64,000 nucleotides of DNA from an uncultured Caulobacter sp. Its GTDB lineage: Bacteria; Pseudomonadota; Alphaproteobacteria; Caulobacterales; Caulobacteraceae. The translations under genes were made by a program, and so were the position numbers. Shown piece after piece: positions 59,350-63,067 of the stretch. Below the pieces are notes generated by a model that had not been told where the DNA came from, ran no database searches, and saw only the letters and a program-made list of their open reading frames with translations. Location of the stretch: positions 1 through 64,000 of the forward strand of contig NZ_CAMQSF010000014.1 in the NCBI RefSeq assembly GCF_947036865.1. The letters run 5' to 3'. Within the stretch, counting starts at the first letter, position 1. Every line of letters begins with the position of its first letter.

Positions 59350-59534
59350 GAGCGTCTCCCCCAATACGCGCGGGACACCGGTGTCATGCGAATCACGCCG
59401 CCCGGTTGCAATCTCCTCATCAGGATCGGGTCGGGAGCGTAAATGCTCTCTTAAGACAGTCCCGGCCCCTTGACCTGAGCGTGGGCGGCGTTACGACGCA
59501 CGCCCTCCCGCCCCGACAGCCTCCGAGCCCCGCC

Positions 59535-60851
59535 ATGACGGCCGCTTCCCCCACGCCGACGATCGGCGTCGACTTCGGCACGACCAACACCGTGGTCTCG
59601 ATGACCCACGGCGGCGAGGCGCGTCTGGTCCGCTTCTCGATCGACAATCGCGATCTCTTCGCCTTCCGTTCGGCGCTCAGTTTCCACGCCACCCAGGGCG
59701 CGGGCGGCCAGGAACGGGTGGTCGAGGCCGGTCCGTGGGCGATCGAGGCCTATCTGGAGGATCCGCTGGAGACGCGGTTCATCCAGTCCTTCAAGACCTT
59801 CGCCGCCTCGCAGGCCTTCACCGAGACGCGAATTCTCGACAAGCGCTACCTGTTCGAGGACCTGCTGGCGGCGTTCCTGCTGCGTCTGAAGGACCACGCC
59901 GGCGACCAGCTCGCCGCCCTGCCCCCGCGCGTCATCGTCGGCCGGCCCGTGACCTTCGCCGGAACCTCGCCGAACGAAGCCCTGGCCCTGACGCGCTATG
60001 AGGAGGCGTTCAAACGGCTGGGCTTCACGGATATCCGCTACGCGTACGAGCCCGTCGGCGCGGCCTTCTTCTTCGCGCGGCAATTGCAGGTCGACGCGAC
60101 GGTGCTGGTCGCGGACTTCGGCGGCGGCACCTCGGACTTCTCGCTGGTGCGGTTCGAGCGCGCCTCGGACGGGACGCTGCGGTCGACGCCATTGTCGCGG
60201 TCGGGCGTGGGCGTGGCCGGCGACGCCTTCGACTATCGGATCATCGACCAGCTGGTCTCGCCCGCCCTGGGCAAGGGCTCGTCGTACCGGTCGTTCTCGA
60301 ACACCCTGCCGATCCCGCAGCGCTATTACGCCGCCTTCGCCCGTTGGGACCAACTGGCGCTGCTGCGCGCCTCGAAGGACATGCGCGACATCCGCGCCCT
60401 GGAGCGCAGCGCGCTGGAGCCCGACAAGATCGCCGCCCTGATCGAGGTGCTGGACGGCAATCACGGCTACGCGCTCTATCGGTCGGTCTCGGCGCTGAAG
60501 GAGGCGCTGTCGAGCCAGACGGAGGCGACCTTCCGGTTCGAGGCTGGCTCGGTCGAGATCGAAAGGCCGGTGGCGCGCCGAGACTTCGAGGGCTGGATCG
60601 CCCCCGAGCTCGCCGCCATCGAAAGGGCCGTCGGCGAGGCGCTCGACGGCGCGGGTCTAACCGAGGCCAGCGTCGACCGGGTGTTCCTGACCGGCGGCAG
60701 CTCCTTCGTGCCCGCCGTGCGCGAGATCTTTCTGCGCCGGTTCGGCGGCGACAAGATCGAGACGGGCGGCGAGTTCGAGTCGATCGCCTCGGGCCTCGCC
60801 TTGATCGGCCGAGAGCCGGATCTGGATCTCTGGACCCAGCGCGCCGGCTGA
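59535..60851 (+). CDS. Short Hsp70-like protein (YegD type)
   Basis: This 438-residue actin/Hsp70-fold ATPase has phosphate-1 GVDFGTTNTVVSM, phosphate-2 VADFGGGTSDFSLV and the adenosine motif VFLTGGSSFVPAVREIF. It ends just after the nucleotide-binding domain and lacks the DnaK substrate-binding and lid domains, as in YegD. The partner is unknown. The ATG at 59535 lies 185 bp from the divergent chemoreceptor; no other gene is in that gap. The octapeptide-repeat gene follows in the same direction after 88 bp. Confidence 0.9.
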   Translation: MTAASPTPTIGVDFGTTNTVVSMTHGGEARLVRFSIDNRDLFAFRSALSFHATQGAGGQERVVEAGPWAIEAYLEDPLETRFIQSFKTFAASQAFTETRILDKRYLFEDLLAAFLLRLKDHAGDQLAALPPRVIVGRPVTFAGTSPNEALALTRYEEAFKRLGFTDIRYAYEPVGAAFFFARQLQVDATVLVADFGGGTSDFSLVRFERASDGTLRSTPLSRSGVGVAGDAFDYRIIDQLVSPALGKGSSYRSFSNTLPIPQRYYAAFARWDQLALLRASKDMRDIRALERSALEPDKIAALIEVLDGNHGYALYRSVSALKEALSSQTEATFRFEAGSVEIERPVARRDFEGWIAPELAAIERAVGEALDGAGLTEASVDRVFLTGGSSFVPAVREIFLRRFGGDKIETGGEFESIASGLALIGREPDLDLWTQRAG

Positions 60852-60939
60852 GCGCGCCTCGTCGCATGGCGAGCGCGCGGGCTTTCGCCTAAGCTTTACG
60901 AGATCGATTCGCATCGCGAACCTCGGGGGCTCGACGTCA

Positions 60940-62535
60940 GTGCCGATCTCGTACCTGTCCGCAGCCCAGATCGCCGCCCTGTCGGCCACCACGATCACGC
61001 ACCTGTCGACCACCAAGCTGGGAAGCTTGGCCAGCACCCAGGTCGCCGCGATCTCGAACACCGCGATCGGCAGCCTTTCGGCGTCCCAGGTCTCCGCGTT
61101 GTCCAACACGGCGGTCAAGGGCCTGACGGCGACGCAGATCCCCGCCTTCGCCCCGAACCTGATCTTCGACGTCAACCAGCTGGCGGCCTTCAGCGGCGCC
61201 CAGCTCAACGCCCTGACCTCCACCCAGCTGGCCAAGCTGGACGCCGCGCGCCTGGACGCGCTGAGCGCCGCCCAGGTCGGCGCTCTCGACGGCACGCACT
61301 TCAGCGCGCTGGACGCCACCCAGATCGCGGCCTTGGACACCACCCAGCTGACCCAGCTCGGCGCCACGACGATCGGGGCGCTGTCGGCCGATGACCTGGG
61401 CGAGCTCTGGCCCGATCAGATCCAGGCGTTTTCGGCGTCGCAGATCGCCGCCCTGCCCGCGACCCTGATCCCGGCGCTGGACGAAGAGCAGTTCGCCGCG
61501 CTGACCGACACCCAGCTCAAGGCGTTGACGCCTAGCCAGGTCGCCGCCCTGTCGAGCGATCAGATTGGAAGCCTCGGGACGGATGTCTCGCTGTTGTCGG
61601 CGACGCAGCTGGGCGGCCTCACCCGCGACCAGACCGCCACCCTCTCGAACGCTCAGGTCGCGGCGTTGACCACGACGCAGTTGGCCGGCCTCAGCGGAAC
61701 GGGTCTGGGCGCGCTGTCGACCACCCAGATCGCGGCCTTCGACGCGACCCGGATCGCGGCGCTGACGGCGACCCAGATCCGCGCGCTCAGCGCGACCGAT
61801 TTCGGCAAGCTGACGGCGACGCAGGTGGCGGGTTTCACCGCCTCCCAGCTCGGCGCCTTGTCGACGACCAACCTTAACGCCCTGACGGCCAGCCAGATCG
61901 CGGGCTTGAGCGCGACGCAGCTCGGCGGCTTGACCAGTACGCAGATCGGCGGGCTGTCGGCCACCGACTTCGCCGAGCTGAGCGCCACCCAGGTGCAAGG
62001 CCTGACGGCGACGCAAATCGGCGGGCTGTCGGCGGCCAATCTGTCGGGCCTGAGCGCTGCCCAGGTCCAGGCCCTTTCCACGACCCAGGTCGGCGGACTC
62101 ACCGCCACCCAGATCGGCGCCCTGACCACCACGGACATCGGCGAGTTCTCGACGACCCAGATCGGCGCCCTTTCCGCCAGCCAGCTCGGCGCCTTCTCGG
62201 TGACCGATCTGGCGGCGTTGTCGACGTCGCAGGTCTCGGCGCTGACGCCCTCGACGCTGAAGGGGCTGTCGGCGTTCCAGATGCGCAGCCTTTCGCCGAC
62301 CGCCTTCGCCCAGCTCAGCGCCACCCAGGTGCAGGGCCTGACCGCGACTCAGCTCGGCTCGCTGTCGACCACGGTGATCGCCGGCCTGACGACCTCCCAG
62401 ATCGGCTATCTGTTGCCCGCCCAGATTCCCGGCCTGACCGTGACCCAGCTGGACTGGCTGTCGACCACGAACCTGGCGGCGATGACGCCGCTGCAGGTCG
62501 GGGCCTTCACGCCGGCCCAGGTGGAAAGCCTCTAG
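60940..62535 (+). CDS. Octapeptide-repeat protein, function unknown
   Basis: This 531-residue protein starts at GTG and consists of a 5-residue lead (MPISY), 66 tandem units, and a final Leu. The unit consensus is L-[ST]-x-[TS]-Q-[ILV]-x-[AG]. Only unit 10 (6 residues) and unit 27 (7 residues) deviate in length. There is no signal peptide, transmembrane helix, cysteine or separate domain. In units 32-64 the Gln of position 5 is replaced in units 32, 36, 39, 43, 46, 50, 53, 57, 60 and 64, a 4-3-4-3 rhythm giving a 56-residue super-repeat. Isolated replacements also occur at 34 and 55. A regular solenoid or long fibrous structure is likely. Export could be by a type I system or by cell lysis (speculative). 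No homologous family was recognised. Confidence 0.85.
   Translation: MPISYLSAAQIAALSATTITHLSTTKLGSLASTQVAAISNTAIGSLSASQVSALSNTAVKGLTATQIPAFAPNLIFDVNQLAAFSGAQLNALTSTQLAKLDAARLDALSAAQVGALDGTHFSALDATQIAALDTTQLTQLGATTIGALSADDLGELWPDQIQAFSASQIAALPATLIPALDEEQFAALTDTQLKALTPSQVAALSSDQIGSLGTDVSLLSATQLGGLTRDQTATLSNAQVAALTTTQLAGLSGTGLGALSTTQIAAFDATRIAALTATQIRALSATDFGKLTATQVAGFTASQLGALSTTNLNALTASQIAGLSATQLGGLTSTQIGGLSATDFAELSATQVQGLTATQIGGLSAANLSGLSAAQVQALSTTQVGGLTATQIGALTTTDIGEFSTTQIGALSASQLGAFSVTDLAALSTSQVSALTPSTLKGLSAFQMRSLSPTAFAQLSATQVQGLTATQLGSLSTTVIAGLTTSQIGYLLPAQIPGLTVTQLDWLSTTNLAAMTPLQVGAFTPAQVESL
60955..62532 (+). repeat. 24-nt coding tandem repeat array (66 units)
   Basis: Protein-coding array with an 8-codon unit and a second-order 168-nt (7-unit) periodicity seen best in units 29-63 (about 61618-62457). 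Units are diverged at the nucleotide level, so the array is old or selected for protein structure rather than recently expanded. Confidence 0.9.
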
Positions 62536-62584
62536 ACAGCGCGCCAGCGCGGGCGTCTGATCGAAACGCAAGCCGGAGGCTTCC

Positions 62585-63067
62585 ATGGCCCGTGTCGCCT
62601 ACGCCCTCCTCGCGGTCGGCCTCCTGGCCGCCGCGCCCGCCCTGGCCCAGACGGGGCCGATCGGCGCCGCCGGCCGCTGGACGATCGACCTGAAGGCCTC
62701 CCGCTTCAACGAGGCCCTGACCGGTCCCGCCCCGACGGCGGCCGAGGTCGACATCACCAAGGACGACGGCAAGAGCCTGGCCTGGACGCTGATCGAGGAG
62801 GACGAGGCCGGTCTCGCCGCCCTTCAGTTCGCCGACGCGCCGCTGGACGGAACGCCCGTCAAGGCCGTCGTCAATACGCAGATCGTCGAGATCACCGTCC
62901 GGCGCGAGGGCCGGAACGCCATAACGGCCGTCACCACCAACAAGACCGGACGCAAGCAGTCGATGCGGGTCTGGCTGTCCGATCCCGACACCCTGCGGGT
63001 CGAACAGGATGTCGACGGCATCCCAGGGCCGCCGGACCAGAGTCTGACATTCCGCCGCGTGCGGTAG
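62585..63067 (+). CDS. Small exported protein, unknown function
   Basis: This 160-residue protein has a signal peptide (cleavage after APALA-Q, about residue 21) and a beta-rich mature domain (GRWTIDLKASRFNEALTGPAP, KQSMRVWLSDPDTLRVEQDV) that looks like the small lipocalin-like or exported single-domain proteins common in Caulobacter. No catalytic residue was recognised. It has a GGAGG site and is 49 nt after the repeat gene, so co-transcription is possible. Confidence 0.75.
   Translation: MARVAYALLAVGLLAAAPALAQTGPIGAAGRWTIDLKASRFNEALTGPAPTAAEVDITKDDGKSLAWTLIEEDEAGLAALQFADAPLDGTPVKAVVNTQIVEITVRREGRNAITAVTTNKTGRKQSMRVWLSDPDTLRVEQDVDGIPGPPDQSLTFRRVR

Follow-up and report, generated by a model that had tools for sequence, protein, structure and literature searches.

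The repeat family to which the gene of this report belongs is already known. In Pfam it is PF20080 (ALTTAQ repeat, ALTTAQ_rpt), built on the same octad; the profile covers 38 residues, less than two of the turns discussed here, and so cannot carry a second-order phase. Among other helical repeats, armadillo (ARM) repeats take about 42 residues per turn, and in coiled coils a 4-3-4-3 spacing, with corrections by steps of 10, holds a stripe on one side of a non-integer-turn helix. Mesothelin is described as a right-handed coil of nine layers with 24 short helices (PMC10035497). Our window is the whole 64,000-nucleotide stretch at positions 1 to 64,000 of contig NZ_CAMQSF010000014.1, from an uncultured Caulobacter sp., and the gene concerned, at 60940..62535, encodes a 531-aa ALTTAQ protein. 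We think it probable that this protein is a rod-like alpha-solenoid with one short helix per repeat unit, in which the octads that have lost Gln at position 5 mark one side of the rod, with one mark for every turn (about 3.44 octads, or 27.5 residues).

The best sequence match among solved chains is PDB 9zem, 'HeliScrew4', of 120 aa (E 9.9e-15, chain residues 3-110), which has the same kind of octad (LTPEQIAA-like) and also matches a segment of a giant relative (E 1e-13). Through 9zem the fold of the 531-aa protein is likely to be known already, to judge from sequence similarity. With 13 octads in its aligned part, 9zem is too short for a test of rhythm (p=0.85).

PF20080 matches the 531-aa protein at 229.2 bits (curated cut-off 26.4) in 19 stretches, and no other domain was recognised in it. 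The protein is free of cysteine, and Ser and Thr make up 25% of it. The octad pattern is L-S/T-x-T/S-Q-I/V/L-x-x in tandem, and our parse gave 66 units, 64 of them full octads, which bears out the 66 tandem octads with only two length errors of the initial annotation; the short units are 9 (6 aa) and 27 (7 aa). The layout is as follows.

60940..62535, plus strand: whole gene, GTG start, 531-aa ALTTAQ-repeat protein (open frame, PF20080; 13 orthologs share the start position)
60955..61146, plus strand: octads 1-8, the N-terminal stretch following a PISY start common to the orthologs (unit parse)
61147..61164, plus strand: unit 9, six residues FAPNLI (the orthologs have a 6-residue unit at the equivalent place, as do L048, L056 and other giants)
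61165..61572, plus strand: octads 10-26 (unit parse)
61573..61593, plus strand: unit 27, seven residues (unit parse, ortholog alignment)
61594..62529, plus strand: octads 28-66, which carry the 4-3-4-3 rhythm (unit parse, ortholog alignment, spectrum)

Loss of Gln at position 5 and its period

Gln is absent at position 5 in units 2, 3, 5, 7, 9, 13, 15, 18, 19, 22, 27, 32, 34, 36, 39, 43, 46, 50, 53, 55, 57, 60 and 64. The list given for units 32-64 in the initial annotation, which had read it as an alternation of steps of 4 and 3 with only units 34 and 55 breaking the rhythm, is thus exact for this sequence. For comparison we have a full-length set of 14 copies, comprising the 531-aa protein and 13 orthologs of 527-532 aa from the same genus, with 55-74% protein identity to it. 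The ratio of non-synonymous to synonymous substitution rates (dN/dS) is 0.31-0.42 when the 531-aa gene is set against five orthologs, and for four pairs that are closer to each other it is 0.14-0.23. Of 75 genomes of the genus, 31 have some match at E<=1e-10, with paralogs counted in.

The positions of Gln loss are not random in the ortholog alignment, as the ten regular units (32, 36, 39, 43, 46, 50, 53, 57, 60 and 64) have Gln in 0/14 copies. With regard to the two breaks, unit 55 is a conserved exception to the rhythm, but unit 34 has Gln in 11/14 copies and so is an unconserved break. Unit 47 is another unit that mostly lacks Gln (non-Gln in 11/14). Units 15, 18 and 22 had been fitted to the same series, and this holds for 15 and 22 (non-Gln in 13/14 and 14/14 copies) but not for 18, which has Gln in 12/14. 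The alternation of D-F, D-I or A-F octads with N-L or D-L octads that had been described is borne out; unit 60 has V-I and unit 64 has N-L. The ten octads, which we refer to as the seam octads, are these.

61690..61713, plus strand: octad 32, LSGTGLGA (Gln 0/14)
61786..61809, plus strand: octad 36, LSATDFGK (Asp 14/14)
61858..61881, plus strand: octad 39, LSTTNLNA (Asn 14/14)
61954..61977, plus strand: octad 43, LSATDFAE (Asp 14/14)
62026..62049, plus strand: octad 46, LSAANLSG (Gln 0/14, Asn 12/14)
62122..62145, plus strand: octad 50, LTTTDIGE (Asp 14/14)
62194..62217, plus strand: octad 53, FSVTDLAA (Gln 0/14)
62290..62313, plus strand: octad 57, LSPTAFAQ (Gln 0/14)
62362..62385, plus strand: octad 60, LSTTVIAG (Val 14/14)
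62458..62481, plus strand: octad 64, LSTTNLAA (Gln 0/14, Asn 13/14)

In the 531-aa protein taken alone, p for units 32-66 is 0.0014 at 3.5 units and 0.0077 for any period, with the top peak at 2.33 units, another harmonic of 7; for all 66 units the values are p=0.039 and p=0.16, and units 1-31 have no significant rhythm (p=0.56 at 3.5 units). When the Gln fraction over the 14 copies is used, the peak is at 3.52 units for units 32-66 (p=1e-4 at 3.5, 0.0068 for any period) and at 3.43 for all 66 units (p=0.03 for any period). Counted in residues over the same copies, the peak is at 28.05 for units 28-66 (p=0.0047), 18.67 or 2.33 octads for units 10-66 (p=0.010) and 27.23 for all units (p=0.054).

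In the long relatives the period is sharp. All 11 named relatives from one genome scan, each labelled Alphaproteobacteria or a genus belonging there, peak at 3.425-3.472 units (p<=0.002). Eleven further giants of the same family were added, ten of them from five other genera, and by unit count nine peak at 3.43-3.47, the misses being L079 (4.68) and L083 (4.74, p=0.07). For 27 arrays counted in residues, which are not independent as several are the same gene in relatives, the best period is 27.2-27.7 in 25, with p at the floor of 1/301 and a mean of 27.48 residues (standard deviation 0.13), or about 3.44 octads. Counting in residues rescued L079, while L083 gave 27.25 residues (p=0.063); in L076 a peak at 37.6 is the strongest and 27.48 comes second. 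Power was higher with octad counting than with residue counting in 19 of the 27 arrays and lower in 6, and this is expected if every unit, short or full, is one helix.

The period is coherent over up to 90 periods, with steps of 7 octads and occasional steps of 10 keeping the phase, and intervals of 7 or 10 octads make up 214 of 264 over 16 arrays. The giant paralogs L048 (from the genome of our window) and L055 and L056 (C. vibrioides) have about 306 octads each. Their majority super-repeat, from 82 blocks, is LTTTDIGE LADTQVAA LTATQLGA LSATNFSA LSATQVAA LSTTQIKG LTATQLKG. In these three the D-octads are spaced 7-7-7-10 almost throughout, that is 31 octads for nine turns at 3.444, and give R 0.96-0.98 at 3.4445 units against R 0.19-0.22 at 3.5. 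Other lineages have other recipes with a nearly equal mean, for example 7-7-7-7-10 in some stretches of L059 and 10-10-4 in some of L060 and L063. The 28- and 56-residue cycles are near approximations of this 27.5-residue period. The initial suggestion of a solenoid that turns every 28 residues is close: a solenoid is predicted (see below), and in the long relatives the period is 27.5 residues, about 3.44 units.

In the wider family we used the best 120 of 424 proteins, with 121 runs of at least 25 units. The pooled Gln-loss spectrum is highest at 3.38-3.40 units (1.75, null 95% level 1.32), and its second peak is at 2.0 (1.70). Taken singly, 19/121 runs have p<0.05 and 11/121 have p<0.01 in the 3.3-3.6 band, more than in any other of the nine bands. 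Three of the others have 13-15 runs at p<0.05, and among the 60 runs with the least internal similarity the count for the 3.3-3.6 band is 6. As the rhythm is in a minority of these runs, the strong form belongs to the all-repeat proteins of this lineage and not to every ALTTAQ protein. Calpain-like peptidases, EF-hands or RTX repeats are found fused to some ALTTAQ arrays (P0001, P0006, P0097, P0109 and others).

It could be argued that position 5 simply tolerates several residues, and that a local helix-capping preference together with chance gives a rhythm that is accidental. The lack of rhythm in units 1-31 and in most of the wider set would fit this. However it is contradicted by the strict conservation at the ten regular units and by the 25 long arrays that share one period with p at the permutation floor, and we consider it most improbable.

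Copying of blocks and the period

Nine longer or partial copies of the 531-aa gene were found, of which seven can be assessed for length; those excluded are L045, in two frames, and L047, at a contig end. L045 (G070 C462) is an ortholog broken across the two frames in a fragmented assembly. The six intact longer orthologs surpass 531 aa by 224, 280, 280, 280, 336 and 336 residues, all multiples of 56, four of them after omitting one extra C-terminal residue. The seventh, L046 (+193 residues), is not a multiple, so that the tally is 6/7. The Gln-loss spectrum of the seven peaks at 3.497 units in six (p=2e-4) and at 3.436 in L046 (p=6e-4). At lag 7 the amino-acid identity in the longer orthologs is 0.39-0.48; other lags, multiples of 7 aside, mostly give 0.24-0.38, with 0.45-0.49 in L046 at lags 10, 11 and 17.

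These length differences bring in another explanation, in which an ancestral block of 56 or more residues was copied in tandem and the rhythm is the record of the copying, with no structural meaning. There is indeed copying in the long relatives. Giant L082 of G023 (C4:374000-389000) has near-identical 495-aa copies (DNA identity 0.862) and is a recent amplification in whole turns; L081 repeats every 248 aa (0.77) and L078 every 304 aa (0.73). For amino-acid identity the peaks in L048, L055 and L056 are at lags of 62 and 31 octads, and synonymous identity at lag 62 is 0.74, 0.62 and 0.63, slightly over the means of 0.69, 0.58 and 0.61, so that old copying of 31- and 62-octad blocks is likely in all three.

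However the copied blocks of 495, 248, 304 and 110 aa (L082, L081, L078 and L079 respectively) correspond to 18.0, 9.0, 11.1 and 4.0 periods of 27.5, all near whole numbers, and L073-L077 and L080, with DNA self-identity of at most 0.49-0.58 (at in-frame lags of 24 to at most 3000 bases), still have a significant period near 3.43-3.47 units. It seems that copying happens in whole turns and does not set the turn. For the 531-aa gene itself, amplification of 56-residue blocks, which the initial annotation had offered as a cause, is unsupported, as synonymous codon identity at lag 7 is only 0.46 with other lags at 0.44-0.63, and thus not elevated. The phase is also retained in all 14 full-length copies at the levels of protein identity given above. 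Among three other copies of the 531 type, one (L012, 0.69) has lag 7 as the highest of 21 lags for synonymous identity; among the seven longer copies lag 7 shares the top value in L039 and L040, and the remaining copies are unremarkable. We regard copying alone as an unlikely source of the rhythm, though old copying may have taken place.

The predicted fold and the seam

The AlphaFold2 (AF2) model of the 531-aa protein has a mean predicted local distance difference test (pLDDT) score of 86.3 and is all helix and loop with no strands; that of a giant segment has a mean of 94.5. In both models nearly every octad has a helix, mostly 5-6 residues long, giving an alpha-solenoid. The nearest solved folds among the listed Foldseek/VIA neighbours are mesothelin- and ARM-type helical solenoids, the latter including beta-catenin, importin-alpha and designed ARMs. 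For mesothelin and stereocilin the Foldseek probability is 0.93-1.00 but the TM-scores are 0.16-0.38, and a profile search of the 531-aa protein gave no ARM or mesothelin family at E<=1. PDB 9zem is absent among the listed fold matches, and the fold library (to 8 April 2026) may not include it.

Helix length along the giant-segment model has a weak periodicity (p=0.005 at 3.444 units, p=0.16 for any period), and along the 531-aa model there is none that matches the Gln-loss period. The relation between predicted structure and period is thus weakly present in the giant but absent in the shorter protein. The turn obtained from span ratios to ARM proteins, 29.6 +/- 1.1 (39 rows) or 29.0 (37 rows), is a rough gauge only.

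Two other folds were considered and rejected. Ice-nucleation proteins are beta-solenoids of octapeptides, and had been mentioned in the initial annotation for their higher-order periodicity, but no such family was found at E<=1 and the AF2 model is helical and not beta, so the analogy fails on structure. Leucine-rich repeat (LRR) chains in the PDB match from E 6.9e-5, which looks like an effect of Leu spacing, and the model is strand-free.

For the long arrays we looked at other positions of the octad by phase. Asp or Asn at position 5 and Glu or Asp at position 8 have phase 0.95-0.99 at each array's own period, but are so partly by construction, as octads picked for Asp or Asn at 5 and a polar residue at 8 defined the phase origin. 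More independent evidence of phase, taken relative to the D-octads, comes from position 7, where Lys or Arg has phase 0.54 (R 0.56), and from position 3, where Asp has 0.24 (R 0.81). In a separate subfamily (L049-L052) Lys or Arg at position 7 is again at 0.54, with lower R (0.42). By this measure Lys and Arg in the long relatives lie on the face opposite the putative seam. The 531-aa protein has only 11 Lys or Arg residues.

We suggest that the repeat units, 66 in the 531-aa protein and with few exceptions, would each form one short helix of a rod-like alpha-solenoid, with the 27.5-residue period as the superhelical turn, making the 531-aa protein a rod of about 19 turns. Ser or Thr at position 2 would cap each helix, with Gln at position 5 as a partner in the first turn, and Asp or Asn (or Ala, Gly or Val) at position 5 of the Gln-loss octads would then give a continuous straight seam. 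The 4-3-4-3 spacing would be to octads what the heptad is to the residues of a coiled coil, with the 10-octad step acting like a stammer. The seam may well be a contact face, for an extended ligand or for another rod: if the screw were perfect, every octad would be equivalent and nothing would hold the phase.

A different role for the seam would be as the ligand-binding ladder of an ARM-like groove, with one Asp or Asn per turn touching an extended peptide or glycan. In importin-alpha and designed ARM proteins an asparagine ladder contacts extended peptide, and both are among the structural neighbours listed, as is beta-catenin; the long relatives also have about one Asp- or Asn-bearing octad per inferred turn. 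However neither groove nor ligand was seen, Asp and Asn are also favoured by helix capping, and three of the ten seam units (32, 57 and 60) have Gly, Ala or Val in most copies. We see this role as possible but doubtful.

Neighbouring genes and comparison with known systems

The 531-aa gene sits between an Hsp70-like gene on one side and a small open reading frame (ORF) and a LysR regulator on the other.

59406-60851: Hsp70-like gene (PRK11678 model 191.7 bits, under the cut-off of 331)
62585-63067: small ORF, 160 aa, with a signal-peptide-like start by eye (no family over cut-off)

Orthologs L010 and L020 also have an Hsp70-like gene beside them, together with the beginning of a LysR-like protein that is very similar. 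An antisense open frame of 549 aa (60937-62586, minus strand) spans the whole repeat gene and is perhaps a by-product of codon bias within the repeats.

The giant paralog of the same genome is at C1:26698-33939, minus strand, followed by a gene with tetratricopeptide repeats (TPR) and a GT41 domain. TPR and GT41 (PF13844) genes directly downstream of giants are these.

L064:8508-10523 (G000 C1:24753-25787)
L053:6822-8849
L056:10515-12017
L061:10222-12162

In 28 of the 30 genus genomes assessed, a GT41 gene with the same orientation lies no more than 6 kb downstream of the listed ALTTAQ matches, the exceptions being G051 (GT41 on another contig) and G059; G030 was omitted from the count as its giant is not among the matches listed. 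GT41 is present in 31/31 ALTTAQ genomes and in 12/44 other genomes of the genus (Fisher 1.4e-11, uncorrected for relatedness). In other genera, for 12 of 13 ALTTAQ genomes (without G127), seven have GT41 downstream on the same strand, two have it near but divergent, two are without GT41 and one could not be assessed. The GT41 enzyme is likely to be a glycosylation partner of the giant ALTTAQ protein.

The next genes at the giant locus are for an FkbM-type methyltransferase and a GT61 glycosyltransferase (L064:6121-8526, L066:15604-16665), and these would fit a glycan-modification cluster. Upstream of the giant there is a GH3 glycosidase gene with a twin-arginine translocation (Tat)-like start and, in the genome of our window, one for an SDF dicarboxylate symporter (L065:643-4473, L056:278-2587). 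No secretion gene was found among the neighbouring ORFs scanned with Pfam, and no signal peptide was seen by eye at the start of ALTTAQ proteins.

With giant paralogs of about 90 turns and a GT41 O-glycosyltransferase next door, the products could be long rods glycosylated on Ser and Thr. We would go one step further only tentatively, and think it on balance unlikely to be right in full: the octads would form a coiled-coil-like helix of helices, with 7/2 and 10/3 octad steps on a turn of about 3.44 octads, in which the Asp/Asn seam and the opposite Lys/Arg face pack rods of up to about 90 turns side by side, the giant and GT41 being a two-gene O-glycosylated fibre system and the 531-aa protein a short form.

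In the open-licence papers searched we found no account of a phase-locked seam with one shared period of 27.5 residues, and none of those papers mentions ALTTAQ, PF20080 or HeliScrew by name. If our preferred reading, of a solenoid marked on one side once per turn, is true, an alpha-solenoid shows its pitch in its sequence to about 1%, since steps of 7 and 10 repeats keep a chemical stripe on one side for up to 90 turns. It would also be a case in nature of a repeat design locked in phase, would account for ortholog lengths that differ by whole 56-residue blocks, and would make the giant Ser/Thr-rich protein a candidate substrate for the GT41 enzyme in a genus used in the laboratory.

With regard to known glycosyltransferases, FlmG itself has TPR and GT41 domains. 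The TPR and GT41 gene here differs in that it adjoins a giant octad gene. FlmG of Caulobacter is described as a soluble cytoplasmic O-glycosyltransferase (OGT) required for flagellin modification (PMC7591256).

As to the fold, the ARM and mesothelin solenoids have short helices stacked in a superhelix, which the ALTTAQ proteins would share, but ARM proteins have one longer repeat per turn, whereas here there are near-identical octads with an inferred 27.5 residues per turn. Coiled-coil heptads and stammers are steps of residues, and in the ALTTAQ arrays the corresponding steps are of whole octads, each a predicted helix.
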